Below, one piece after another: positions 29,027-47,033 of a stretch of DNA of 64,000 bases. The DNA comes from Medakamo hakoo. Lineage: Eukaryota > Chlorophyta > Trebouxiophyceae > Coccomyxaceae. Below the pieces are notes generated by a model. It was given only the letters and a program-made list of their open reading frames with translations, was not told the DNA's origin and made no database searches. The translations under genes were made by a program, and so were the position numbers. Location of the stretch: NCBI GenBank assembly GCA_026636295.1, contig CP089451.1, forward strand, positions 124,001 through 188,000, written 5' to 3'. Each line of letters opens with the position of its first letter. Positions within the stretch are counted from its first letter, which is position 1.

Positions 29027-32000
29027 ATGTCCGACTCATCCTCGGACGAAGGCGCTGCCCGCCAGCCGGCCAAGCGCCAGCGCCGCCACGTCTGGCAGTC
29101 CAAGCCGGCGGCCGCGGCCAAGGTGCGTTGGGAGAGAAAAAAACGCATGCGTTGTGCGCCAAAAGCTAACCGTGTGGTGGTGCACCGCCTCCACGGCGGT
29201 TGTGCGCCGCCGCACCAGCTTTCCGCGCATACTATAGACACCCCAGAGGGTTGACGCACCCGCTGCCATTGCTTGGACGCCATGCCGACGCATCCAACAC
29301 TCCTGCACGCGCCGTTTTTTCGTCAAGCCGTCGGGCCGCCGCCGGTCGTGTCGTCTCACTCCCGCCCCTCCCTCCCACGCACAGGTCACCGTCGACGTCC
29401 ACCGCACCCTGGTCCCGCTGCGGGACGAGCCGCTGCCGGGGACGTCCTGCTTTTTTGAGGTAAGGAGGCGCGGGCGATGAGGAGCAGGCGCACAGCGAAA
29501 CATCGCGCGGCCGCGGCGCCGGGCGCAGCCCCGCCGCCCGGCGTCTCAACCTTGCCCCCCTCCTCCATCACCCCACCCCACACTCCCACACACAGGAGGA
29601 CCTCCAAAAATGGCGGGAGACGTGCGGCGCGCCCCACTTCACCGCCCTGGCGCGGGCGGTGGCGCAACACGCGTCGTCCCTGGCCCTCGTCCTGCACCAC
29701 CAGGCGGCCATCGTGGAGGCGCTGGAGGCGGCGCTCGTCCCGGGGGCGGAGGACTCTGCGGCCGCCGCCTTTGGCCTCGCCGGCGCCCTGGCCCGCGACC
29801 TGCGGTCCGACCACGCGCCGTACGCGCCCCGCATCGCGGCGGCTCTAGCATCGTGGTTGACCGCCGGCGGCGACCGCGACCCGGACGTGCTGGCGGCCGG
29901 CTTTGCGTGGTTGGGCACGGCGCTCAAGCACGCGGGCCCGGCCGCCGCCCGGCCAGGCGGCCTGGCCGCCGTCCTCGGCTGGGCCGGCCCCCTCCTGCGC
30001 CACCCCGGCCCTCCCGCCGCGCGCCGGCTGGCCGCGGGCGCCATCGCCCACCTCCTCCGCCGGGCGGCCCGGGCGGACGTGGGCGGCTGCGTGGAGGCTG
30101 TGCTGCTCGACGGCGTGGCCGTCGCCGCCGAGGCGGAGGAGGCGGGGGGAGGTGAAGGCGTCAGCCAGGCCTCCCCGCCGCCGCCGTCCCAGCCCTCCCT
30201 CGCCGCGGACGCGGCGGGCGCCCTGCTCGCGGCCGCATGCCTGGGACCCGACGCGGGCCTGCACTCCCGGTCGCCCGACCTGCTGGCGGCGGGTCTGGCG
30301 GCCGGGCGGGCGGGCGCGGGCGGGCGGGCCCGCTGGTCGCCGGCCTTTGCCGACGCCGTGGCCGCCGCCGCCCTGGGCCGCCTGGCCCTGCACACCCGGC
30401 GGGACAAGCCAGGGGTTGAAGTGCTGTGGGCGACTGTGTTGCATGAGGTGGACGCCCGGCTGGGAGGCGGCGGCGGCGACGCCCCTCCTGCCGCCCGGTC
30501 CGCCGCCGCCGCGCGCGCCGTCTGCCACGCCGCCGCCCTCACCGAGCACGGCCGGGGCGCGCGCGTCCTGGAGTACGCGCCCCTGTTCGCCCTGGCGACG
30601 CGCCTGACGTCGGTGCAGGGCGGCTGCCTGCCCGACGGCGCGCTCGACACCGATCCCCTGCCCCTGGCGTCCGCCCGTCTGGTCGCGGCGCTGGCGGACG
30701 GCCACAGGCGGGCGGTCGCCGCGTCTGGCGGGCCGGCCGCGCTGGCCGCGTCCGCGCCGTCCTGGGCCCGCCTGTTCACGACTGGGCCCGTCGGTGCGGC
30801 AACCATTGCCGCGCGTGGCGTGCGATCCGCCATCGCGGCGGCGGGGCCCGCCGGCGCGGCGGCGGGGCGGGCGCTGGCACCGCTCGCGCTGTCGCCGACC
30901 GCCCGCGCGTTTTTGGACGGAGGAGCGTCCGCCGCCGCGCTGCTGGACGCCGGCCCCGCCGCTGACGCCCTGTCCGGGTGGGGAAGCTGTGCAGTCGATG
31001 ACGACGACATTGCCGCATCGTTCGACCCGTTGGCTGCCGCGACGGCCGCCGCGCCGGACGCGGCCGGGCCCTGGCCGCCGCGCCCCCTCCTGCCGCGCGC
31101 AGAGCCGCCGGCCGCGGGCGCCGCCGCCGCCGCCGCCGTCTTGGCAGCCGTCGCCGACTGGCCCAAGGACGGTGTCATCACCGTGGCGCGGGCCGCCCAA
31201 GCATGGGCGGGCGCGCGGGCCCTGCACCACGCCGCCGCCAGCCCGGCGGACGCGTGCAAGGCCGCGGCGCGGTTGGTCGAAGCGGCGGCCGCGGCGGGTG
31301 CGGCTGCGCGCGCGGCCGCCCCCTCCCCAGCCTCCGCATCGCCCGCCCAGCTCGCCGCCCTGGAAGCGGCCGGCCTGGCGGCTCTGGCCCGCGCCCTGCG
31401 TGCCCGCCTGGCCAGTGGCCGGGCCGGCACCGCGGCTGGTGAGCTGGCGGCCCTGGGCCCGCGCGCCGTCGCGCTGCTGTCGTCGCCCGCGACGGCCGGC
31501 TCGCCCGCGGCCGTGGCCGGCGCGTCGGCCGCCCTGCGCGCCGCAGCCGACGCGGGCGCGGCCCTCTCCCCGTCCGACTTCTCGTCTGTCTTGGCGGCGT
31601 TGGAACCCGCCTTAGACTCGCCAGCCCCGGCCGTCCGGGCGGCCGCCCTGGCCGCCCTCACCGCCTGGCCGGCCGACCTGGCCGGCCCCTTCCAACCGTT
31701 TGCGGCCGTCGCAGCGCGCCCGCCGTCCGTCTCGGAAGGCCGGTCCGCCGCCCAGGCCATCGCTCGGGCGGGCGAAGCATTGGCCCGGGGTCGCACCACC
31801 GCGTCCGACCCGCGCCTGGCGCCCGCCCTCGTCCGGTGCGTGCTGGGCGCCCTGCATGCCCGCTTTGCGCCGCTGTGGCCCGCCGCGCGCGGCGCGCTCG
31901 CGGCCGCCTTGGCCGCGCCGGCAGACGCCGCGCCCGGCGTGGCGGACGCGGCCTGGCCCCTGGTGTTGGCGGACCTGGAAGCCACGCAAGCCGCGGCCCT

Positions 32001-35000
32001 GGCGGGCGGTGGGCACAGGCGGGGCGCGGCTGACGCGGCCGGCGGGCCGGCCGCGTCACCCGCGGCCGACCCGCTCACGCCCGCCTTCCTCTCCGCGGCC
32101 GGGGCGGGCGGCGGCGGCGGGGCCGGCGCCGCGGCCGACCCGGCCGCCCGGCTGGGCCACCTGCTGCAAGCCCTGGCGGACCTGCCCCAGCCTGCCCTGG
32201 CCCGCACCGCGTCGGCCTGGGTCCCGCTCTTCCTGCGCTTTGCGGCCGGCCGGCCGGGCGGCGGCGGCGGCGGTGGCAGCGGCGGCGGGCACGCCGCCGC
32301 GCCAGGCGACGACGACGACGACGAAGACGAGGAGGAGGGCGCCGACGCGGCCGCGCCCACCCGACCGTCGCTGGGCGCCCGGGCCTGGCGGGCCCGCCTG
32401 GCCGACTGGCTGGCCGTCCTCAAGGCGGCTGGCGGCGCGCTGCGGTCCGAGGCGCCCGCCCGCCGCGCCGCGCTCGCGGCCGCGCTCGGCGCGGCCGTCG
32501 CGGACGTCGACGGCGCCGTCGCGGCCGCCGCCCTGGCCGTCGCAGCCGCCGGCTTAAAACTGACGTGGCTCACGCCCCTGGCCCCGCGCCTGGCCCGCCT
32601 GGCCGACGACGCGTCCCTGCGCCGGGAACTGCTCTCCTTCCCCCTGGCTGCTGCCGGCGCTGGGGGCGCGGAGGGCGGCGCGCACCTCACGGACGCCGCC
32701 CACCGGCTGGACGCCGTGGCGCTGGTCGTCCACGTCCTCTGGCCCAAGATGAGGCGCCGGTCCGGGCGCCTGGGCGGCCGCGGCGCGCCCGGCTCCGCCC
32801 GGGCCGCGTGCCTGAACTTCCTGGGCGGCGGCCTGGCGCTGGGCGCGGAGGCCGGCGCGCTCGTCGCGCGCTTCATGGCCCCCCTCGGCCCGGCCCTGGC
32901 CTGGCCCGGGCCCGGCGTTCCGCCGCCGCCCACGACAGCGGCGGGCGGCCTGGTGTCCGTCCCCTGGTGGGCGGCGGCCCTGGCCCGCGGCCCGGACGGC
33001 GGCGCCGACCCTGTGGCGTGGTGGCTGGCGGCCGCGCCGCCGGGCGCGCTCTCCGCCCTGCCCCCCCACGCCCGCCTGGGCTGGGCCAACGCGGCCGGGG
33101 ACCTGGTCGACCGGGCGGGGCACGCGCTGGCGGCCCAACTGCCGGCGCTGGGTGCGATCCTGGTGGCCGTGCTGGAGGCGGCGGGCGAGGACACGCCGGG
33201 CGGGGCGGGCCGCGGCGGCGGCGGCGGCGGCGGCCGCGCGAGGCCCGCGGGCGCGCGCGACGCGGCCGCGGCCGCCCGTGAAGCCCGGGCCGCCGCCCTG
33301 CGGACCCTGGCCTCCCTGTGGACCCGGTTCCCGACGGCCGTGTCGTGGGCCGCGCTCTGGCCGCGTTTCCTGGCTGCGGTCGGGCCCGCGGCAGGGCGGG
33401 CGGCCGCCGACGCGGCCGCGCCCGGGCGCCCGCCGGCGCTGTTGGAGGTCGTCGCCGCCCTGGCGGCGTCGCCCGCCCTCGCGCCCGTCTTGGCGGACGC
33501 GGTGCCGGGGGACGCCGCCTTCGAGGAAGACGGCGGCGCAGAGGGCGAGGCGGTGCCGCCCCCGCCCTGCCCGCCGCCCGGCTCGTGCGCCGAGGCCTGG
33601 GCCGCGTCAGGCGCCGGGTCGGGTCTCGTGGCGGCGCTGGCGGCCGCCCTGGCCTCGCCGTGTGCGTCGCCGCCCGCCCGGGACGCGGGGCTGCGCGCCC
33701 TGGAAGGCCTCATCGCCCTGGGCCCGTCCTACGTGTCCGCCATTGCCGCGCCGCACGCGGCCGCCCTGCTACCGGCGCTGCAAGGGCTGGCGGGCGCGGG
33801 CGGGAGTGGGGGTGGGGGTGGGGGGAGGCGCGGCCGTGGCAGTGGCGGCGCGGCGGGCCTGCCCGCCCCGCCCGGCGCGCGGACGCAAGCCCGCGCCCTC
33901 GCCGTCCTCGAGGCCCTGGCGGAGTGCGCGCCGCCCGGCCCCGACGCGGGCGGCGCCCTGGCCCGGGCGCTGTTGCCGCTGCTGGCGCCGCGGAAGGGGC
34001 GGGGCGGGCGGGCGCCGCGCGCCGCGCCCGGCGCAGCGCGCGCCGCGACGGCGCTGGCCGCCGTCCTCCGCCGCGCGGGCGGCGGCGGCGCCGCCTCCCT
34101 GCCGCCAGCCGACGTCGCGGCCATCGCCGCCGCCCTCACCGCGCCCCTGTCCGTGCCGGCGGAACCGGGCGACGCGGCGCGGGCGGGGCTGCGGGCCGCG
34201 TGGGCCGCGCTGGCGCAGGGCCACGACCCGGGCCTGCGCCCGGCCGTCGCGGCGCTCGACGCCCTGGACACGTCCGCGCCGGGCACCGTGGGCGCGGCGG
34301 ACTACGACGCCCGCTTGGGCGCGTACGAAGCCCTGCGCACGCCCGGCGGCTGGGCGGCGCTGGCGGGCGGCCTCGCGCCGGCGGCGGGCCCGGCCGCGCT
34401 CGCGCGCCGCGCGCTCGCCGACGTGGCCGACGCGTCTGACCTGGCCTTGCGCCACGCCGCCTCCGCCGCCCTGGCACAACTCATGGCGGACGCGGGCGGG
34501 GAGGGCGGCGGGTCGCCGGACGCCGCCGCCGCCACCCTCGCCCCCGCCGCCCGGGCGGTGCTCCTGGCCGCCGCGCGCGCGGCCGGCGCCGCCCCCGACC
34601 TGTCCGTCCGCCAGGAACACCTCGCCCTCCTCCGCGCGGCCGCGCTCGCGGCGCCGGCCGCCCACCCGGGCCTGGCCGCCCTGGCCGACGCGGCCGACCC
34701 GGAAGTCGACTTTTTCCTGAACGCGGCCCACCTCCAACCCCACCGCCGGGCCCGGGCCATGGCCCGGCTGGGGCGGGTGGCGGCGTCCGGGCGGCTGCCG
34801 CCGGGCACCGCGCTCTCCGTCGGCCTGCCCCTCATCGAGGCGGCGCTGCTGGGCGGCGGGTGCGCCGCGTCGTCATCGTCGACGGGGCACGCCACCCGCC
34901 CGACCGACGCGGGACGGGACGCGGCGGTGGCGGACGCGGCCGTGGACGCGTTGCGGGCCGTCGCGGGCTCGCTGGCGTGGCGGCACTACGCGCAAGCGCT

Positions 35001-38000
35001 GGGCCGGGCGCTGCGGTTGGTGGCCCGCGTCGCCCCGCCCAGGGCCGCCTCCGCCCCGCCCGCCGGCACGCTCCCCCGGTCCGCGACGGGCACGCCACGC
35101 GGTGGGGACGCCGCCATCAAAGCCGCCGTGCGGGCCGTGTGCGCGGTCGTCGACGCCTTTCACTTTGAGCTGCCCGGGCGCGGCGCGAGCGCGGCAGAGC
35201 TCGCGGCCGCCGCCGACGCGGAGGACGCGGCCGCCGCGGCGGCCGCCGCCGCGGCGGCCGCGGCTGAAGCGGAACGCGAGACAGCGGACGCGGCCCAATT
35301 GGAAGACGGCGGCGTCACAGAGGGCGGGGTTGTGGGCGCCGTCGTCGCGGCGGGCGGCGGGAGCGAGAGCGAGAGCGACGACGACGACGACGAGGCGACC
35401 GCCGGCGCGGCCGCGGCCGCGGCCGCCGCGACCGCCGACGCGGCGGCCGCCCACCGCGCCCTCGTCGCCCGCGCCCTGCCCGCCTTGCAAGCCCAGCTCG
35501 TCGTCGACGGGTCCGTCCGCGCGCCCGTGGGCCTGGCCATCGCCAAGGTGTGCCGCCTGCTGCCGGCCGCCGACGTGCGGGCGGCCCTCCCGCGCGCGAT
35601 GCAGTCGGTCGCTGGGCTGCTGCGCTCCCGCCTCCAGCACGTGCGCGACGCCGCGCGGGGCGCCCTGGTCGCCATGGTCGCGGCGCTCGGCCCGCCCTAC
35701 CTGCCCTTTGCGCTGTCCGTCCTGAGCTCGGCCCTGCCGCCCAAGGGCGTGTACGGCCACGTCGCCGCGTACACGGCGCACGCCATGCTGGCGGCGCTGG
35801 CCGAGGGGGGCGGGCGCGACACGCGCGACGTGGGCGGAGCGGGCGACGGCGCCGCCGCCGCGGCCGCCCCACCCTCGACCACGACCACCACCCCGCCACC
35901 CTTCCCGCCTGGAGCTCTGGACGCCGCCCTAGACCGCGCCCTGGCCATCATTGAACGCGACTGGTTTGGTGAGGGCGCCGAAGAAAAGGAGGCGGCGGGC
36001 TTTGGGGCGGGCGTGCGCGAGGTCAGGAAAACGACCGCGCCCGCGGCCGTCGAACTCCTCGCGGCCGGCATCGACTTCCGGGCCCGGTTCGCGGCCGTCC
36101 TGGAGCCTGCGCTGGCCCGCGCCCCCGCTGCTGTGGGGTCATCCCGCGCCGCGGGCAAGGTGGCCGCCTGGCTGGAAGCGGCGGCAAAGGGGGCGGGCGC
36201 CAACGCGTCGGCGTCGCCGACCGACCGCCTCGCGTGGGTGTGGGGCGCGCTGGGCGCGGGCGTGGAAGCCGACGAGGCGGCGCGCGCCGCCGCCCGGGCG
36301 GACGCCGTGGCGGCGTGCGGCGAGGCCGGCGCCGCCCGCTTCCGGGCGGCGGCGACAGCCAAGCCGGGCCCCGCCACGGCGGGCGCGGCGGGCGCGGCGG
36401 CCGACGCGGCCGCGGCCGCCGCGCGCGCGGCCCACCTGCTGGCGGAGGCCGCGTTGGGCGCGCTGCGCCGGGAGATCAAGGCCGGCACGGCGCCGCCGGA
36501 CGCGCTGGGCGCGCTGCTCCCGCTCCTCGTCCGGGCCATGCGGTGCCGGCACGAAGCCGTGGCCCGCGGCGCGCTGCGGGCCGTCGCGTCCGCCGTCAAA
36601 AGGGCGGGCGCGGGCGGCGGCGGGTCCACCCCGCTGCCCGGCCTGGCCGCCGCCGCGCCCGCCGCGTCCGCCGCCGCCGCCACGCTCCTCCGCCGGTCAG
36701 CCGACCCGGCGTCGCCCGCTGCGTCTGGCGCTCTGACGCTGATGGCCGCCCTGCTCCGCTGCCCCGGCGCGGCCGACCCGCCGCCGGCGCAAGTGCGCGG
36801 CGCGCTGGCCCTCGCCTTTTCCGGCGCGGCGTCGTCCACCGGCGTCCCGCCCCCGCCGCCGGCCGTCGACTACTTCCGCGCGGTGGTGGCGCGGTGCGCG
36901 GGCAGGGTCAAGGGGCAACAGGCACGGCTGGACCCGCCGCCCGGCCTGTACGACGCGGCCGACCTGCTGCAGGGCGTGGCCATCGCCGCGCCTGGGCCGG
37001 CCGACCGTGCGGCCGCGCGGGCCGCGCTGCTGGCCTTCCTGCTCGACTGCCCCCTGGGCCCGCGGCGCCTGGCCGCCCACGTGGAGCGGGCCCTGGCCAA
37101 CCTGGAGTACGAGCACGCGGACGGCCGGGCGGCGGCGGCGCGCCTGGTGCGGGCGCTGGCGGAGGCGTTCCCGCCGGCCCTGCGCGCGGACTGGGCGCCC
37201 GGCCTCCACCTCCCGCTGGCCGCCCGCCTGGTGGCGGAGGCGGAGCCGGGCCCGCGGGCCGCGGCGGCGGCGGCGTTGCAGGCGGTGGTGCGCGGCGTGC
37301 CGCCGGCGGTGGCGGACAGGCTGGCCGGCTTTGCGGCGGCCTGGATGGGGGGCGGCGGCGGCAAGGCGGGCTCGTCGGCCGCGCCGCCCGACCCGCGCCG
37401 CGCGCGCGCGGGCGCGGCCGCCCTCGCCCTCCAAGTCGCGGTCGAAGGACCCGCGGGCGCCCGCCACGCGCGGCTCGCCCTGCCGCCTACTCTGGCCATG
37501 CTGGAAGCGGCGGTGGCGGCCATGGAAGACGAGGACGGCGGGCGCGGCGGCGACGGACGCGGCAGTGCCGACGGCGGCCCGGGGTGGGAGGCGACATACG
37601 CCGCCCTCTCCCTGCTGGAAGCGTTTGCCCAGGCGGCCCCGGCCGCCCTGGCCTGGGCCGACCCGGCCGGCCGGCGCGCCTGGCTGCTGGCTGCCCGCTT
37701 GGCCCTGTACCCGCACGCCTGGGTGCGCCGGGCGGCGGCGCGCCTGGTGGGCCGGGCGCTGGGCGAGCGCGACGCGGGGGAGGGGCTGCTGGCCGAGGAC
37801 GGCGGCGCGGTGGGTGGCCCGGCCGCGGCCGGCCTGCCGCCCGCCCGCGTCCTCGCCCGGGCCGCCCTGTCGTCCGCCCAGGATCCCTCTGCGGCGGACG
37901 ACCCTGGCCTGTTGGCGCAGGCCTGCAAGAACGTCGTGTTCCTGTCGGCGGCCCTGTTCGACCTGGACCAGGCGGCGGGCCTGGTGCCAGGCAGCGGGCG

Positions 38001-38631
38001 TGGCGGCGGTGGCGGAGGCGACGACGCGCCGTCCGACGACGACGACGACGACGACGAGGCCACCCCACACCCCGCCCGCACCGGCCTGACCTTACTGGGC
38101 CTGTGCCGTGCCGCCGCCCGCCTGGCGGACGGCCGCCCGGGTGGCGGGCGCGGCGCGCCGTCGTCGTCCGACCCGGCCGCCCTGCCCCAGCGCCTGGCCG
38201 GCCTGCGGCTCATTGCCGCGCTCACCGCCCGCCTGGGGCCCGACAGAGCCGCGCCGTACCTGCCGACCCTGCTCACCCCTGCCTTCCGCATCACGGAGGG
38301 CGGCGCGCCCGCGCCGCCTGAAGCCGTCGCCCTGACGGCGGAGGTGTTGGATGCTGTGAGAGCGGCCGCGGGCGCGGGCGCTGCGCTGGCCGGCTACAAT
38401 GCCGCCCGGGCGGCCGTCTTGGCCGCCCGCACGGCGCGGAAGGCCGCAAAGGCCGTGCACGCCCTGGTCTCGCCCGAGGCTGCGGCCCAGGACCGGTTGC
38501 GCAAGCAGGCCCGCCGGGCGGCCAGCCGCAAGAAAAAAATGGAGGAGGTGACCCGGCTGCGCGCAGCGGGTGTCGCAGTGAAAAACAAGAGCGGGCGGCG
38601 GCAGCAGGCGGGCGTGCGGAGGGAAGAGTGA
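29027..38631 (+). CDS. UTP20: Small-subunit processome component UTP20
   Basis: UTP20 is a giant HEAT/ARM-repeat scaffold of the 90S pre-ribosome in the nucleolus, needed for 18S rRNA processing. Exons are 29027-29122, 29385-29459 and 29596-38631, joined in phase 0, giving 3068 residues (yeast and human forms are about 2500-2800). Exon 1 is acidic then basic (MSDSSSDEG, KRQRR). The third exon starts EDLQKWRETCGAPHFTALAR and SSLALVLHHQAAIVEALEAA, the recognisable N-terminal block. The rest is Ala-rich repeats with acidic low-complexity inserts. Near the end KNVVFLSAALFDLDQAAGLV and a Lys/Arg tail match the family. The last exon, 9036 nt, is the longest uninterrupted frame in the window. Confidence 0.88.
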
Positions 38632-38670: not shown

Positions 38671-41353
38671 TCAATCCTCCCCAGCCGACACGACCAGGCT
38701 CCACGGCGATGCCAGGCTTTCTGCCGCGGCAAACCTAGCCCAAAACGCGGCCCACTCGCTCGACTCGCCGGCGCCGCCGCCACCGCCACCGCCGACGCGC
38801 TTGCCGCCCAAATCCGCGCGCACGGCCGCCAGCAGGCCAGCAGGCGTGGCCGCGCCCGCCACGGCCGCGGAACCAGGCGCCAGCTCCAGCCCCAATTCAG
38901 GAATGGAGACGGCGGCCGAGCGGGGGATGGGCGGCAGTGGGGCGGCCGCGGCCGCGGCACTGGACACACGCAAGGTGAAGGGCGAGGAGAGGGGCGCTCC
39001 CCCGGCCTCGCCGTCACTCCACGAGCTCACGGGCCCACGCCAGCCGCACGCGTCGCACGCGTCCGCTGCGATGACGGTGGATGTGGAAGCGGCGTCGTCG
39101 CCGCTTCCCAGGCGGGCGATGCGGGTGACGGCGCCGACCGGGGACCCGCACGCGGGGCAGGGCGCCGCCCACTCCGCGACGAGTTCGGACGGCGACGGCG
39201 AGCGGTCGCTGCGTGTTTTGGGAAAGGCACGGCGCGTGTGAGACACGCACAGAGACACGGAAAAGAGTGTGTGACAAGAGGGGACGGCCGTCGCGGCGAG
39301 ATCGCCTGCCCCCCCTCTCCGTCCGTGTGGGTCATCCATGTGGGCGCATGGATGTGCTCCGCCCCATCCCACCGACTCACCCGCCGCCCGTCGGCGTCGC
39401 CCTCAGCCGCTCCCGCAGCGCCGCCAGCCGGGCCAGGCGGTCGGCCGACGGGCCGCCACCGGCCTCATCATCAGCGCCGTCCCCTCGCTCAGCAGCAGCA
39501 GCCCGGGCGGCGGCCTTGCGTGCGGCCCGCTCGTCCCGGCCGGCCGCACGAGCCGCCGCCGCGCGCGCCGCGCGCGCCCGCCGCCGCGCCAGCCGGCCGT
39601 CCCCCCTCCCAGACGCCATGCGTTCCGCCGCGTCCGGCGGCGGGCCGGGTCCGTCCCGCCGCGCCCGGCCACCGGCCAGCACGCCCGCGCCCTCGCCCGT
39701 GATTTCCGCCGCCCACGTGCCGTACTGCCCCGAAAATTTCGCGGGCCGCAACAGGCGGGGCGCGGCCATGCAGGCCTCACAGCAGCAGCCGGCCCGCTCG
39801 GCCGCGCAGGCCCGGCAGGAAATGAAGAGCTTGTTGCAGTCAATGTTGGCGCAGTTGAGGTGGGGCAGGGTGGCGGCCCCGCCGCAGATGGCGCAAGGCG
39901 ACGCGGACGGCAACGGGTCGGGGGCGGCGGCTGCGCCCCCGCCGCCCGCGACCGCCGCGTCAGCGCCCGTCCGCCCGTCTGGCGCGACTGCCATGCGCGC
40001 ATCAAACACGAACAGGCTGCCCTTCCAGCCCTCGCCCCCCCGCTCACGGAAGTACCGGTGGACGCCGCCCTCCAGCGTGTACAGGTTGGTGAAGCCCTGC
40101 TGGGCCAGGTGCGTGGAGTAGACGTCGCAGCGGATGCCGCCGGTGCAGTACATCATGACCGGCGCGTCGCGGGGCGCGTGCGCGAGGTGGGCGGGGATGG
40201 GCAGGGAAGACGAAGAAGACTGCGTGGTCGACTCGTCTTCTTCGGACTCGGAGTCGGCCGCGGCGGCGGCGGCGGCGGCCGGGCCCGCCCGCCCGGCGGG
40301 CATGGACCCCGGCGGCCTCGCCGCCGGCGACACGTCCGTCGGCGTCTCGTTGAAGTTTTCTTCCAGGGGGCGGGCCGCGCCCGCAAAGTGGCCGGCATCC
40401 CACTCGTACCCGTTGCGCACGTCCAGGACGATGGGGGCCGGGCCGGGCGGCGGCGGGCCGCCTCCGGCGTCGCTGCCCCGCCCGCCGTTGGCCAGGGCCA
40501 GCATGGCCGCCCACTCGTCCGGCGTCAGGGGCTTGGCCCGCGCGGCCGGGTCCGTGATCGGCAGGCGCCCGCACCCGCCGGCCAGTGAGATCAGGTCCGG
40601 CTTGAGCTTCAAGCGCAGGCGGGGGAAGAGGTGGACGCCGCCCGGCGCGGGCTCGGCGGACGGCGCCATCGTCGCAAAGCCGGGCTGGGCCGCGGCCCAG
40701 GCCACGTACGCGTCCGCGTCGGCCGCGGGCCCCGAAAACTGGGCGTTGATGCCCTGGGGGGTGATGTAGATGCGGCCGGCGATGTCCAGGGTGGAGAGCT
40801 TGTCGGCGTGGGCGGCGTGGAGCTGTTTTGTTGGAGGGGCGGATGGATGGATGGGAGGGGAGGGCGGGGAATGAGGCGGAGGGTTGGCTGTCCAGCGAGG
40901 GAGAGGGCGTGCCCGGAAAAGAGACTGTCGCAGCAGCGACGCCGCCTTTTCTTCCCCCGCACACGGGCCCTGCCGCGCTCGTTCAACCCCACTTCACGCA
41001 CGCACCACCCCTCCACGCACCTGCGCAGGGTCTTCCACATCCACCAGGTGGTAGAAATTGACGACGACAAAGGTGTGCGGCGGGATGCCGGCCGCGGCAG
41101 CGGGGCCGAAGACGACGGCTGGTGCGGCGCCCGCATTAGGCGTCGCGGACGCCGTGCACCGGGTGGTGGACAGCGGCCGGTACGCGCTGATGGCCAGGCC
41201 GCCGTCTGGACAAGCTAGCCGGGTGGGCGGCAGGCTCGTGCGCGCCCCCGCGACGGCGGAGCACGCCCGCAGGCTAGCGCGCCCGCCAGTCGCGCCACTA
41301 GTGCCGCGACCGCCACTCAACAGCCGCCGGGCGGCGGCGGACGCCAGCGCCAT
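38671..41353 (-). CDS. STR8-type rhodanese fused to a half ZPR1 module
   Basis: Exons 41353-41021, 40822-39381 and 39208-38671 join in phase to give 770 residues. Residues 1-85 look like a plastid transit peptide. FVVVNFYHLVDVED and GRIYITPQGINAQFSGP are the N-terminal domain of TrhO/STR8 rhodaneses. The rhodanese has VLDVRNGYEWDAGHF and the active loop MYCTGGIRCDVYST (Cys at about 335), with an acidic Ser-rich insert between. A cysteine-rich zone follows (CANIDCNKLFISCRAC, GCCCEAC), as in plant STR8. The rhodanese frame then meets GTGAGT, and splicing in phase 2 adds one ZPR1 unit: C609, C612, C643, C646, then VSIPELGLELAPG and a WSLVV end. Alternatively exon 3 is a separate short gene starting in the intron (ATG 39372). 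Confidence 0.82.
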
Positions 41354-41571: not shown

Positions 41572-43104
41572 ATGGCGACGACCCACCCCGCGGCCTGGCC
41601 GCAGAGCTGGTCAGAGGACAGCGACTCGGACTCCTGCTGCGGCAGCCAGGCCCGGCGCAGAGAAACGGCGGGCCGCGTGCTGGCGGCCCTGCTCGGCGGG
41701 CCGGCCGTCGCGGCCGCGGTCCAGGGCGCGCTCGGCCTGGAAGCCGCGCTGGAAAGGTGAGTGTTTTTTTTTCGGCTGCGCCCCCAAGGGCTGAGGCGTG
41801 GGCGTCCGTGCCCACGACTCGAACGAGCCGTGGGCAAGGAGTGGGGTGTGGAGGGCTGCGAGGGCCCGAAACCCGCAACGCTGCGACACTACGCCGCGTG
41901 TCGACTGACTCGCCGCGGGCGGGCGGGGGCGTGCGGTACGGGGCGCCGCCTCGCCCGCTCTCCCTCCCTGCCTTTCCACGCCTTGCAAAGCCCAGGCTCT
42001 CTGGCTTTGATTGGGCGTGAGTGCAGTGTGGAAGCGGGGCGCCCGCTGCCCGCCGCGGCCCCCGCTGCGCACGTTGACATAACGCGGTCACTCGGCGCGT
42101 GAGCGCACGGCGCGCGCTTTTGTCGCCGCACGCGCCGCGCCGGCGCCAGGCGTCCCCTGCGCCCTCCTTCAGGGCACGTGCCAGCCCTCTGGCCGACCAG
42201 GGATCCGGGTTTGGGCGGGCGTAAATCCCCCCACACACACCCCAACACGAAAAAAAAGGAGCCCGCGCGCGCGGCCGATGGGAGCCCCTGCGGACGCGGG
42301 GCCCGCCGAAAAACCTCACACCCCCCTCCCCTCACGCTTCCCTCCCCCCACCCGCTCTGTAGCACGCTCGGCTCCGCCGCCGCGCCCGTCGTCGCCGCGG
42401 CGATGGCCGCCGCTCGCGGCAAAGCCGACGCCGCCACGACCGCCGCGGGCAAAAAAAAGGGCGCGGACGCGCATGCGTGGGCGGACGTGCCGGGCACCGT
42501 GCCCGCGCGCCCGTCGCCGCGCACCGCGGCCGCCCCGCCGTCCATGCCCGCACCGCCGTCATCCGCGGCTGTCCAGGCCGCCCTGGTCGCCCTCGTCACG
42601 CTCGCCTGCGCCGCCTTCCTGGCGGACCGGGCCGCGCTCACAGGCTGGCCGGCGGGAGGCGCGGCCGCCGCGCACGTGGCGTGCACCGCGGCCGACGCCC
42701 TGGCAGTCGCCGCGCCGCTCGTCGCCGCCGCCGCCGGCCGCCGGTCGGCCTCTGCCTCGCCCTCCTCGTCGCCCAGGAGGTGGGCGGCGACGGCCGCACC
42801 GTCCTTCGCGCGCGCCGCCGCGGCAGGGTGGCTGGCCCTGGCGGGCGGGCGGTCGGGGCGGGCCGGGTCCCGCCCGCGCGCGCCGCCGCACCTGCTGGCC
42901 GCGCTGTTGGCCGGGACCGCGCCCGCGGGCGCCGCCGCCGTGCCCGCTGGCGCGGGCGCCCTGGTCGCCGCGCTCCTGTGGTGCGCTACGACGACGTCCG
43001 CGTCCGCCTGCGGCCTGGAAGCCGCGCTGGCCTCCCTGGCCGCGTCGGGCGCGGCGGCCCAGCTGCTCGCGACCGCGGTCGTCGCCTGGGCGGCCGGCGG
43101 GTGA
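41572..43104 (+). CDS. Multi-pass membrane protein, unknown
   Basis: I do not recognise the family. Exon 1 (41572-41756) and exon 2 (42363-43104) join in phase 2/1 to give 308 residues. The N-terminus is acidic and Ser-rich (SWSEDSDSDSCCGSQARRR), so it is not a signal peptide. A basic KKKGADAHAW patch follows exon 2's start. From about residue 145 hydrophobic helices alternate with short loops (VQAALVALVTLACAAFLAD; VACTAADALAVAAPLVAAA; LLAALLAGTAPAGAAAV; ALVAALLWCATTTSASAC; SGAAAQLLATAVVAWAAGG), about five passes. The intron is 606 nt and holds nothing recognised. The sequence is too Ala-rich for a safe family call. Confidence 0.65.
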
Positions 43105-43905
43105 CGACCTTACTTCTTCCCTTGCCGCGCGGCAAAAGCGAAGGCTCGACAAAGAAAACACTACGCATATATAACCTTAACCCAAAAAAGGGCGGGGCCG
43201 TGCCTGCGCGCACTCCCCCCTCCCCATGTGTTTCCTTTCCCTTTTTTCCCCCACCTCGAGGGCGAGGGCGGGATGGGTGGACGAGGCAAGAAGCTCTTTG
43301 TTTTTTGCTTCCCGCCGTCCCCCCACCCTCACTCTTTTTCCGCATCACCCAGAGTCGAAGAAGATCTCCGGAGGCCCGAGACTGTGCTGCTCGCCTCTGC
43401 TGCTGGGCCCGCGCCTCTTCCATCCGACTGCCCGCCGTTCCAGCCGGCCCCCGCCTGCGTGGGGGCTCTAGGCTTTCCCGGCTCCCAAACGTCCTTTCTC
43501 CATCTTTTTTTTGATATTTTCAAATTCTGCGTGTTCGTTAAGAGAGAGAGCATATACGTGCGGCGCTTGTGTGCGTTTTTGGCATGTTAAGACACGAAAA
43601 AAGAACCTACTTTTGACCGGAAAAGCAACAAACCATCCACTCTCTCCATCAACGGCCGAGCGCAACGGCCCAATTCACACTCGGCCGGCCCCTTTTTTCG
43701 GAGCGTGGCAGTCCCGACCCACCCACCCACCGCCCGCAGCCTTGAAGCTCTGACATTCCAGCAGTCAATCTGAATTGATTGGAGGGCGGTGGCTGCGCGC
43801 GTGAGGGCACTGAGAGTCTTTTTTGGAGCGGGCGCAAGAGAACGCGACCGCGCACCACCTCCATCCATCCACCCGCCCATTCATCCATCCATCCATTCAT
43901 CCGCA
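43105..43905. other. Intergenic between two membrane-protein genes
   Basis: About 800 bp, with lower GC than the rest and T-rich patches near 43500-43530. A small hairpin (CAATC, GATTG) lies near 43764-43782. CATC repeats cover about 43860-43895, directly before the next ATG. No gene was recognised. Confidence 0.45.
43860..43896 (+). repeat. CATC/CATT repeat in 5' leader
   Basis: Imperfect CATC and CATT tetramers run into the leader of the membrane-protein gene at 43906, ending about ten bases before its ATG. This gives a long unstructured pyrimidine-rich 5' leader. Confidence 0.75.
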
Positions 43906-44955
43906 ATGGCGTCCGCGGGTGTCGTCGCCGGCTCCATCCTCATCGTCACGACCTTCCTGCTGATCTCCATCGCCCTCTTCTTTCCACCTGTGACATCCCT
44001 CCTCCGCCTGCCGGTGTCCAAGCTCATTCGGACGACCAACGGCCGGGCGGGCGCGGCCGCGGGCGACCCGGCCTTCCCCCTCCGCCTGGCGGCGTTCTCG
44101 CTCCTGGACCCGGCCCACCCCGTCGCCCGGTCGTGCGACCCGTCTGGCCGCCCATCCCGCGCCGTCCTGGCCTGGCGCGTCCTGGGCGTGCTGCTCGCCG
44201 CCGCGTCGCTGACGGTGAATGGGGCCACGCCGCCCGGCTTCCGCGCGGGCGGCCCGCCCGCCTGGTTCTTGTGCTTCTTCACCAACTGGACGTTCATCCT
44301 GTTCTTGGGCACGAGCCTGTTGGGCACGTGTGTGTCGGGGCGGGCGGTGTGGAAAGACCGGAGGACGCGTGGAGAGGGCGGCGGCGCGGCCGCCGCGCCC
44401 GCCGTCGTGCCCGCCACCGCGCCCGCCGCCGCGCCCGCCTCCCACCCCGTTCGGTGGACGATCCCGTCCATGGCCCACGTCCTGGCCACGGCCTGCCTCG
44501 TGCCCACCACCCTGTTCATCACCATCTTCTACTGGGGCGCGCTCTTCCCGGCCATGCGGTCCAGGCGCGTCCTCGCAGACGCGGTCTTGAAGCATGGCGC
44601 GAGCGCGGGCTGGGCGCTTGCCGACGCCCTCCTCTCCCGCACGCCCGCCTGCTCCGCGCACTTTGCCGTCCTGGCCGCGTACGTCTTCACGTACGTCGTC
44701 TTCATGTGGGCGTACTCCGGCAGCACGGGCACGTGGATGTACGCCGTCCTGGACTGGCGGGAGGGGGCGCGCACGCTGGGCGTGTACGCGGCGCTGCCCG
44801 CGCTGCTGGCCCTGTGCGCCGTGCTGTGGTACGGCGTGGCCGCGGCGCGGGAGGCGGCCTGCGTGCGGCGGGGGTGCTGCGCGGCGGGCCGGCGCCCGAG
44901 GAGGAAGGAGGGCGCGGGGGCGGCGTCGGAGGGTGGTGGCGCGGGCGCTGTGTGA
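43906..44955 (+). CDS. Multi-pass membrane protein, Rolling stone-like
   Basis: A 349-residue protein with about seven hydrophobic segments and no intron. Segments include GSILIVTTFLLISIALFF at the N-terminus, VLAWRVLGVLLAAASLTV, FFTNWTFILFLGTSLLGT, HVLATACLVPTTLFITIFYW, FAVLAAYVFTYVVFMWAY and AALPALLALCAVLWYGVA. The aromatic helix FFTNWTF, the FYWG segment, and GTWMYAVLDWREG near the end match the general pattern of Rolling stone / FAR-17a/AIG1-like membrane proteins, some of which are lipid hydrolases. A loop of Ala/Pro repeats lies near residues 160-180. The C-terminal tail is Cys/Arg-rich. The family call is tentative. Its stop is 79 bp from the ZPR1 stop. Confidence 0.7.
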   Translation: MASAGVVAGSILIVTTFLLISIALFFPPVTSLLRLPVSKLIRTTNGRAGAAAGDPAFPLRLAAFSLLDPAHPVARSCDPSGRPSRAVLAWRVLGVLLAAASLTVNGATPPGFRAGGPPAWFLCFFTNWTFILFLGTSLLGTCVSGRAVWKDRRTRGEGGGAAAAPAVVPATAPAAAPASHPVRWTIPSMAHVLATACLVPTTLFITIFYWGALFPAMRSRRVLADAVLKHGASAGWALADALLSRTPACSAHFAVLAAYVFTYVVFMWAYSGSTGTWMYAVLDWREGARTLGVYAALPALLALCAVLWYGVAAAREAACVRRGCCAAGRRPRRKEGAGAASEGGGAGAV

Positions 44956-45034: not shown

Positions 45035-47033
45035 TCACCCCTCCCCTGCCTCCACCCCTTCTTCCTCGTCTTCCTCAATGCCGCCGCCCTCCGCCACTCC
45101 GCCGCCGGCCGCATTGGCTGCCGCATGCCTCCTCAGGTGGTCAATGCCAAACTCCTCGTCTTCTTCCTGGGAGCGGACGTAGTCGACGACCGTCAGCCCC
45201 GGGTCGTTGGCCGGGTCCGCCTCCTCGCCCGGCCCGCTGCCCGGCGGGCCCGAAATGAAGGAATTGGCCATGGGGTCCGTCATGACGAGCGTCCAGGGCC
45301 GGTCGCCGGCCGCGCACGCTTCCAGCCCCTCGTAAAACCGCTTCCACGTCAGGGAGGACGGGTCCAACCGTTCGGCGGCATCGCCCAGCTGGAAGGTCTG
45401 GGTCGACTGCAGCGAATCGCGCACGGCGAGCGCCAGGCCTTCCACCGTCGTGATCAGGCCGCCCAGCGAGCCTGTCGACACCTCCAGGTCCAGTTCGGGG
45501 ATGGACACGCGCGCCGTCTCCGCTTTGATGACGTCCCGCCGCAAGTCGGCCGGGCTGGTGACCGCCAGCTCCAGGCGGCGGCCCTTGGGCGGCACGCCGC
45601 CGCCGCCCTTCACCTCCGCGTTGCGGTACCCGCACGCGTCGCACGCGTCCGCCATGAGGATGACCTCCTTGAAGAAGGGGATGTGCGTGCGGTAGACGCG
45701 CGTGGTGGTCCCGCCCCCGCACGCCGCGCAGTGGCCCGGCAGCTCCATGACTTCTTCGGGCGGCGTGTACCGGGCCATGAGCGCTTCGGCGGCGGGCCCC
45801 TCCAGCCGGGCGAACGCGCGGTGGGCGGCCGCGGCGCCGAGCGGGGCGGCGCCGTGGTGCGGATCGTCCGGGTGGATCTCGGGAGCGTCGGCGGCCGCGT
45901 CGCCGTCGGCCTGGGTGCGTGGCGTGTGTGGGAGGGGGGAAAACCGAAAAGCCGGAAAGGGTGAGAGGTGGCGTGCGGGGTGGCAACCCCAGCCCTGCGC
46001 ACCGCGCACGCGCGCCGCTTTCCCTGCCCGCCCGCCCCCACCTCCCACCGCCATGAAAACCACTCACCATCGGCTTCAGCCCGCACGCCGCCGCTTGTTC
46101 GGGCGTGCGGTCGTAGTACTCCACGCGCACCAGCGGGTCGGACGGGCCGTCGGCTTCGACGCCAGAGTTGCCCGCCGGGTCGTCCAGGGTGAGCGTGAAC
46201 GCGGTCTCACCCCCTGCCGCGGCGTCCAGCCGCGCAAGGAACGCGTCGATCGCCGCCGCGGCTTCTGCGTTGGCCACCCGCCGCTCCGGCTGCAGCGCGC
46301 GCAGCTTGTCGCCCGCCTCTTTCAGCAGGCCTTCGACCGTCGTGATGCAGCCCTTTTGCGTGCCCGCCGGGATCTCGAATTCCAACTCTGGAATGGTCGC
46401 GGTCGCGGTGTCGGCTTTGACGACTTGGCGCGACAGGACGGCGGGGGAGGACGCGGGCACGGTCAGCGTGGTGCGCGTGCCGCGCTCGCCAAACGCGCCG
46501 GCAAAGGAGACCTCGTTGTTGCTGCATGTGTGGCCGGGAGCGCGTCCGTGAGGGGGAAGGCGAAACAAAACATGGATGGAAAAAGCAGGGCGGTCAGACA
46601 CGTTCCCTCCCCGCCGCCCCGCACACCCCGCCCAAAGACGCACCGGTTGCCGCAGTGCGGGCATTCAAAGGAGCAGACCATGACTTCCCGGAAGTGCGGG
46701 ATCTTGGTCATGAGCATGCGCGTCTCACCCTGTTGTGTCGGTTGTGAGTTGTTGGACGCACGACACCAGTAAGAAGGTTTGGGCCGGCGTGCAGGTGCCT
46801 AGCCGTCTCCCCATTTTCTTTCCGCCCAGCCACCAGGCACGCACATTTTTGAAGCATTCCATGCACAGGGACGGCAGCGTCAGTACCTCGCCGATCGTGC
46901 CCTCGATGACTTCCGTCTCCTGCGGTGCCTGGCCGCTCTGGGCGGCGTCGCCGCCTTCTTGAACGGCGGCATCGGCCGCGTCAGCCTCTCGCGCAGGCGC
47001 GGGAGGCGGCGCGGGCGGCGCGGCGGTGGACAT
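45035..47033 (-). CDS. ZPR1: Zinc finger protein ZPR1
   Basis: ZPR1 is a eukaryotic protein with two C4 fingers; it binds eEF1A and acts as its folding chaperone. Exons 47033-46845, 46729-46644, 46521-46068 and 45910-45035 join in phase to give 534 residues. Finger 1 is C57, C60, C86, C89 with the usual 25-residue gap (TRMLMTKIPHFREV between). Its A/B module follows (ATIPELEFEIPAG, ITTVEGLL). Finger 2 is C304, C307, C333, C336 (RVYRTHIPFFKEVILMADA), then GGGVPPKGRRLEL, VSIPELDLEVSTGSLGG and DRPWTLVMTDPMANSFI. The tail is acidic. It is the complete two-unit form, a few kilobases from the half unit fused to STR8. Confidence 0.95.

Follow-up and report, generated by a model that had tools for sequence, protein, structure and literature searches.

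A Predicted Gene of Medakamo hakoo Joining a TrhO-Type Rhodanese to One Divergent ZPR1 Unit

Gene Model of the Locus

The analysed stretch of DNA from the tiny green alga Medakamo hakoo (hereafter, the window; 64,000 nt, GC content 74.6%) contains three minus-strand exons that can be joined in phase, and translation of the spliced model yields 770 residues followed by a stop codon. The product, as read from the sequence, consists of a complete TrhO-type rhodanese, a basic linker and one divergent ZPR1 unit, in this order, and the gene is referred to below as the chimeric gene. All positions are given within the window (Table 1). Searches of the organism's own genome covered 15,638,232 bases in 16 contigs; the genome summary in PMC9871001 gives a total of 15.8 Mb, a GC content of 73% and 16 nuclear contigs.

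The chimeric gene and a UTP20 homologue are convergent, with ca. 40 bases between their stop codons. On the other side, a canonical ZPR1 gene on the same strand ends 3.7 kb away from where the chimeric gene starts. The two frames located between them gave no Pfam match at E ≤ 0.01.

Table 1. Positions of the chimeric gene, its sequence features and its neighbours within the window.
Feature	Position	Strand	Description
UTP20 homologue	29464-38631	plus	single 3055-codon open frame; Pfam UTP20 E 1.6e-38, UTP20_N E 3.5e-11
Exon 1	41353-41021	minus	333 nt; residues 1-82 (targeting-type leader), then the first part of UPF0176_N
Intron 1 (predicted)	41020-40823	minus	198 nt, GTGCGT...ACAG, phase 0, GC 67.2%
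Exon 2	40822-39381	minus	1442 nt; rest of UPF0176_N, Rhodanese, Rhodanese_C, basic linker
End of UPF0176_N within exon 2	to 40598	minus	Pfam
Rhodanese	40435-40052	minus	Pfam
Active loop CTGGIRC	40147-40127	minus	residues 337-343
Rhodanese_C	40024-39770	minus	Pfam
Basic linker	to 39381	minus	ca. 130 residues
Intron 2 (predicted)	39380-39209	minus	172 nt, GTGAGT...CACGCAG, phase 2, GC 64.5%
Exon 3	39208-38671	minus	538 nt; divergent ZPR1-type unit
CPAC	39159-39148	minus	residue 609, zinc-ribbon cysteines
CDAC	39057-39046	minus	residue 643, zinc-ribbon cysteines
SIPEL (of SIPELxLEL)	from 38907	minus	retained in exon 3
Predicted helical hairpin	ca. 38844-38719	minus	AlphaFold2
Stop codon TGA of the chimeric gene	38673-38671	minus	translation
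Two intervening frames	42403-43101, 43897-44952	plus	hydrophobic-rich by eye
Canonical two-unit ZPR1 gene	47033-45036	minus	exons 47033-46845, 46729-46644, 46521-46068, 45910-45036
Chlorophyll a/b-binding protein gene with introns	48300-47334	minus	two pieces match PF00504

Removal of intron 1 leads to an uninterrupted UPF0176_N domain in the Pfam analysis of the translation. The GC content of the exons of the chimeric gene (74-77%) exceeds that of both its introns (Table 1); in the ZPR1 gene nearby, the three introns have 60.0, 65.6 and 70.7%. When the donor of intron 2 is read through (GGG TGA GT), the donor itself supplies an in-frame TGA (39379-39377), which explains why the unspliced frame of exon 2 stops at this point; splicing of the phase-2 intron restores the reading frame. 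Alternatives to intron 2 were enumerated as in-frame GT-AG pairs that define an intron of at least 50 nt, with a donor from 39500 on and an acceptor before 39175. Out of the eight choices obtained, a GTGAGT donor is combined with a CAG acceptor in one only, the predicted one. The minus strand of the window contains ten copies of GTGAGT, including the donor of ZPR1 intron 3.

The original prediction, made from the sequence of this stretch, was that the rhodanese frame continues through the GTGAGT donor and the acceptor at 39209, in the right phase, into a ZPR1-like unit, and this agrees with what was found. The exon join looks real, and the three exons would make up one chimeric gene spliced in vivo. 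Transcripts retaining intron 2 would encode a TrhO protein devoid of the ZPR1 unit, and a switch between two isoforms is conceivable.

The TrhO-Type Enzyme Part

Three Pfam domains were detected above their cut-offs in the chimeric protein: UPF0176_N (residues 96-186, 56.2 bits, cut-off 26.2), Rhodanese (residues 241-368, 32.0 bits, cut-off 22.2) and Rhodanese_C (residues 378-462, 58.7 bits, cut-off 26.9). The best NCBIfam match of exon 2 is TrhO (E 1.6e-41), with 142.3 bits against an equivalog cut-off, set for bacterial TrhO, of 170; since exon 1 was left out, the query lacked part of the N domain. The relatives of exon 2 in the PDB are 9j5o, a tRNA uridine(34) hydroxylase (E 1.3e-28), and 4f67 (E 8.5e-19). 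The CTGGIRC loop has the C, T, G and R that are needed for tRNA hydroxylation: residues C200, T201, G203 and R205, which are essential in E. coli TrhO, are all matched in CTGGIR (PMC6599085). The domains and the loop together support a place for the rhodanese in the TrhO family, and it is at this level that the earlier STR8/TrhO assignment is borne out. In own-genome searches, Rhodanese_C and UPF0176_N each had a single match, the chimeric gene.

The order of the three domains is that of bacterial TrhO/YceA (the UPF0176 tRNA uridine-34 hydroxylase). Another of the closest known proteins is human TSTD2, for which PMC10135228 reports no function. In comparison with TrhO, the chimeric protein has in addition a transit-type leader, a low-complexity insert in the rhodanese, the basic linker and the ZPR1-type unit. 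By eye, the insert (ca. 40360-40170, minus strand) is long, rich in acidic residues, Ala and Ser, and is located just before the active loop.

The leader (residues 1-82) contains 9 R/K, 1 D/E, 17 S/T and 20 A. This composition fits a transit peptide, and the protein is probably targeted to an organelle. The leader had been described earlier as chloroplast-type; its transit character stands, and the composition is equally compatible with the plastid and the mitochondrion. The trhO-type gene is most likely nuclear and, by family membership, its product is most likely a tRNA uridine-34 5-hydroxylase.

In Arabidopsis, the TrhO-like rhodaneses of plants are represented by STR6, STR7 and STR8. A further C-terminal domain is present on STR6, so C-terminal additions to a plant TrhO are not unheard of; we know of no ZPR1 unit on any of the three proteins.

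Exon 3 Encodes a ZPR1-Like Unit

Exon 3 was compared with ZPR1 sequences as a query of 179 residues, whose first residue, S, comes from the unspliced frame and replaces the G of the spliced protein. BLASTP against the genome's own ZPR1 gave 58.5 bits without composition adjustment, the best of 5000 shuffles reaching 37.4 bits, and 52.8 bits (E 7e-13) with adjustment. The alignment spans residues 6-175 of exon 3, i.e., nearly its whole length, and residues 292-454 of ZPR1, which belong to its second unit.

A profile built from archaeal ZPR1 units, which contains nothing from the M. hakoo genome, scored exon 3 at 19.4 bits, and none of 2000 shuffles exceeded 3.8 bits. The units in this profile come from 14 of the 30 archaeal genomes searched; all 14 are recovered by the HMM and two by a regular expression. 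When the profile was run over the 381 window ORFs of at least 100 amino acids, the exon 3 ORF scored 18.3 bits and the best unrelated ORF 1.5; the only ORFs above the latter value were the ZPR1 exons and the exon 3 ORF. An hhalign comparison of exon 3 with four canonical ZPR1 units, two of them from this genome, gave a probability of 96.9%, as compared to 0.2% for exon 2 used as a control.

With general domain libraries, the scores stayed under the cut-offs. Among 18,950 NCBIfam models, the best by E-value for exon 3 is TIGR00310 ZPR1_znf, at 0.0017 and 17.7 bits against a cut-off of 78.3. TIGR03655 anti_R_Lar follows with practically equal values (E 0.0019, 18.5 bits, under its cut-off), its match being confined to the zinc ribbon region; this model represents an unrelated family of small zinc-ribbon-like proteins. 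With all 770 residues as the query, Pfam reported no ZPR1 domain at E ≤ 1. With exon 3 alone, jr-ZPR1 reached 14.2 bits, which is under its cut-off of 27 and about the same as the score of PF23451 (13.8 bits), an unrelated zinc ribbon, and Zn_ribbon_ZPR1 was not reported by Pfam at E ≤ 1. A phmmer search of the PDB with exon 3 returned no match at E ≤ 10. Pattern searches for relatives of the ZPR1 unit retrieved 119 stretches in genome contigs and 68 in viral contigs, none of which was confirmed.

The likeness of exon 3 to ZPR1 is beyond chance and, as judged from these comparisons, the exon descends from a ZPR1 unit.

Origin of Exon 3 from the Neighbouring ZPR1 Gene

The genome search yielded a single canonical ZPR1 gene, at 47033-45036, where the four Pfam matches obtained, to two zinc ribbons and two jelly rolls, are all located; this gene matches mouse ZPR1 (2qkd) with E 2.6e-86. 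Its last exon contains the whole of unit 2, in which the usual DPxGNS motif reads DPMANS.

In HMM comparisons, exon 3 scored 40.2 bits with this unit 2 and 5.4 bits with unit 1 of the same gene; the corresponding values for mouse ZPR1 were 16.3 (unit 2) and 5.7 (unit 1). The best shuffles reached 9.5 and 8.5 bits with the M. hakoo units 2 and 1, and 3.3 and 2.5 bits with the mouse units 2 and 1. The score with the M. hakoo unit 2 is therefore somewhat raised by shared composition, as the best shuffles of 9.5 and, for mouse unit 2, 3.3 bits indicate. In a 19-row tree, exon 3 groups with unit 2 sequences (96/91) and away from archaeal units. Within this group, it joins the M. hakoo unit 2 at 87/48, a weak join in view of the SH-aLRT value of 48, the very long branch and the skewed composition. 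The branch leading to exon 3 is 3.92, versus 0.99 for the M. hakoo ZPR1 unit 2. When the genome was searched with exon 3, five matches were obtained, and the second-best place after exon 3 itself was unit 2 of ZPR1 (E 2.1e-11). The three weak matches, on contigs C3, C2 and C15 (E 0.0095, 0.157 and 0.3), were discarded as compositional noise; two of them contain a stop.

At the DNA level, exon 3 and ZPR1 exon 4 bear no trace of a duplication, and exon 3 is no closer to ZPR1 exon 4 than to other GC-rich stretches of the window, so the duplication would be old or the sequence fast-evolving. A nucleotide match at 45418-45765 was considered as such a trace and rejected, being among many chance matches between GC-rich sequences (best 30 rows). 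The exon boundaries also differ, with phase 2 for exon 3 and phase 0 for the ZPR1 exon.

Given ca. 7,600 genes, we estimate very roughly that chance would place a gene within three genes of ZPR1 about once in a thousand cases. Since exon 3 matches the second unit of the nearby ZPR1 (40.2 versus 5.4 bits for the first), local duplication appears to be the likeliest origin: the 3′ part of ZPR1 would have been copied and joined to trhO.

Retained and Lost Features of the ZPR1-Like Unit

The four cysteine columns of the exon 3 unit are occupied by C in each of 18 reference units. The unit has no IPxF, no DPxGNS, no E of TTVEG and no last strand, and is truncated after SPWSLVVS, short of a full unit; the translation of exon 3 also contains Gly/Ala-rich insertions. 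The number of positions conserved in 15 or more of the 18 reference units, a set that includes the M. hakoo ZPR1 unit 2, is 23; exon 3 keeps 10 of these positions and unit 2 of ZPR1 keeps 17. The count for exon 3 excludes one G at its shortened end, where the alignment is doubtful, so that 12 or 13 positions are lost. Exon 3 was predicted earlier to be half a ZPR1 module. One ZPR1-like unit is indeed there, but it does not amount to a full half because the DPxGNS motif and the last strand are absent.

The AlphaFold2 model of the exon 3 unit has a mean pLDDT of 70.3. The cores of the helices in the predicted hairpin have block means of 91 and 90-91, and the turn between them has 52-65. Confidence over the zinc ribbon is low: 10-residue block means are 51-67 for residues 11-60 and 45 for residues 61-70. 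In a Foldseek search with this model, the sole match at E ≤ 0.001 was 2qkd, the tandem ZPR1 domains (E 3.4e-6), but the superposition was poor (rmsd 15.1, TMq 0.47). It was likewise poor for the control, exon 4 of the M. hakoo ZPR1 (rmsd 15.3, TMq 0.39, E 8.7e-17). The AlphaFold2 models were made with three-sequence alignments of window sequences only, which for the half unit included canonical ZPR1 exons, and the fold match is therefore not fully independent. Structure prediction, which had been proposed as a check of the unit, gives a helical hairpin and a match to the ZPR1 fold, with the zinc ribbon at low confidence.

Exon 3 resembles ZPR1 in its four cysteines and predicted helical hairpin and aligns with unit 2. 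Unlike ZPR1, which has two tandem units, each a zinc finger plus a jelly-roll domain, it provides one shortened unit, fused to an enzyme and devoid of IPxF and DPxGNS. With archaeal single-unit ZPR1, it shares the arrangement of one zinc ribbon and one jelly-roll unit per chain; however, DPxGxS, which is absent from exon 3, is kept in 13 of 14 archaeal units.

Function of the Chimeric Protein and Rival Explanations

We consider that the chimeric gene is probably a nuclear trhO for an organelle-targeted product that has acquired, as its last exon, a fast-diverged copy of ZPR1 unit 2, and that it encodes a TrhO enzyme with an accessory zinc-binding domain; we put the probability of this reading at roughly 0.68. 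Unit 2 of ZPR1 (zinc finger 2 and the jelly-roll domain) would have been copied locally onto trhO and would have diverged fast after the joining. The chimeric protein would function as a TrhO enzyme that hydroxylates U34 of tRNAs. Its C-terminal unit would most likely serve as a zinc-binding interaction domain, in contact with a partner protein, tRNA, a second copy of the protein in a dimer, or the enzyme's own TrhO part.

The main rival, which we regard as unlikely, accepts the exon as real and takes the ZPR1-like unit for a harmless, non-functional C-terminal remnant in decay. The very long branch (3.92), the loss of over half of the conserved positions together with the last strand, and the Gly/Ala-rich insertions all fit a decaying tail. 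Yet the four zinc-ligand cysteines, SIPELxLEL and the predicted helical hairpin are all retained, and exon 3 has no internal stop codon. Its codon use also argues against decay. For the codon measure used, the coding training set consisted of a single UTP20 frame plus the ZPR1 exons, and the non-coding set of six window introns, including intron 1 of the chimeric gene. The in-frame log-odds per codon were +0.33 and +0.43 for exon 1, +0.47 and +0.60 for exon 2, and +0.41 for exon 3, for which the other two frames gave -0.36 and -0.43. Thus, exon 3 is as coding-like as exons 1 and 2.

In a further reading, the ZPR1 unit tethers the U34 hydroxylase to EF-Tu/EF1A or to its complex with tRNA in the organelle. 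Wobble modification would then be coupled to tRNA delivery, and a chaperone module would have become a docking module when half of a nearby gene was duplicated. We mention this as a speculation with a low chance of being correct.

The original prediction had set two separate genes against its own model. In the form considered here, TrhO would end at the TGA in the intron 2 donor, and the ZPR1-like unit would be translated from the ATG at 39339, either as a gene of its own or as the downstream frame of a bicistronic mRNA. This ATG, located inside intron 2, is the sole in-frame ATG upstream of exon 3 within the open frame, and exon 3 itself contains no ATG in any coding-strand frame. No splicing is needed to keep the frame open from 39339 to 38671, and bicistronic mRNAs occur in green algae according to the portion of PMC11291117 describing such loci, which also states that few potential start codons lie ahead of the second frame. 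In an mRNA retaining intron 2, by contrast, 17 ATGs, including the trhO start, would precede 39339. Furthermore, likeness to ZPR1 begins about five codons past the acceptor (BLASTP), and the intron 2 part of the frame (39339-39210) has an intron-like codon log-odds of -0.735. This is below all 78 coding pieces of 43 codons (minimum -0.034), which were taken from the measure's own training set, and within the range of -0.34 to -1.16 of four of the six training introns scored by leave-one-out (the other two are introns of the chlorophyll-binding gene). Since exon 3 lacks an ATG and is coding-like and 39380-39209 is intron-like, two separate genes are unlikely on sequence grounds, and we give two products a very small chance.

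The least probable explanation, and one we hold to be highly improbable, is the role proposed in the original prediction, a translation-factor chaperone coupled to tRNA modification, in which the ZPR1 unit would act on EF-Tu in the plastid. The leader is transit-like, and the elements that yeast Zpr1 uses to fold eEF1A, zinc fingers and a helical hairpin, according to the account in PMC10869706 (where Sabbarini 2023 and McQuown 2023 are cited as key papers on the ZPR1 mechanism), are present or predicted in exon 3. The proposal nevertheless finds no support, because the unit is single, truncated and diverged (branch 3.92), has lost the last strand as well as IPxF, DPxGNS and the E of TTVEG, and has 10 of the 23 conserved positions left; beyond the possible location, in a plastid or a mitochondrion alike, nothing speaks for EF-Tu itself.

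Novelty and Significance

Both parts of the chimeric protein belong to known families, and the literature searched holds no record of the combination of TrhO and ZPR1. A text search of 5.39 million papers, with protein databases and subscription journals outside its scope, retrieved no co-mention of ZPR1 and rhodanese. Among the matches listed for STR8, for ZPR1 with chloroplast and for chimeric genes of endosymbiotic origin (PMC5851275), the passages returned contain nothing on a TrhO-ZPR1 pair. What is new at the level of sequence is that the sole canonical ZPR1 gene found, to which the original prediction made no reference, lies 3.7 kb from a chimeric gene whose predicted exon 3 matches its unit 2.

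If its transcript is confirmed, the chimeric gene would encode a tRNA wobble hydroxylase to which a single unit of an elongation-factor chaperone has been added, and the gene that probably donated this unit is still located 3.7 kb away. Such a protein, if our reading is true, would show what a lone ZPR1 unit can do in a eukaryote and would provide a handle on the role of eukaryotic TrhO proteins.
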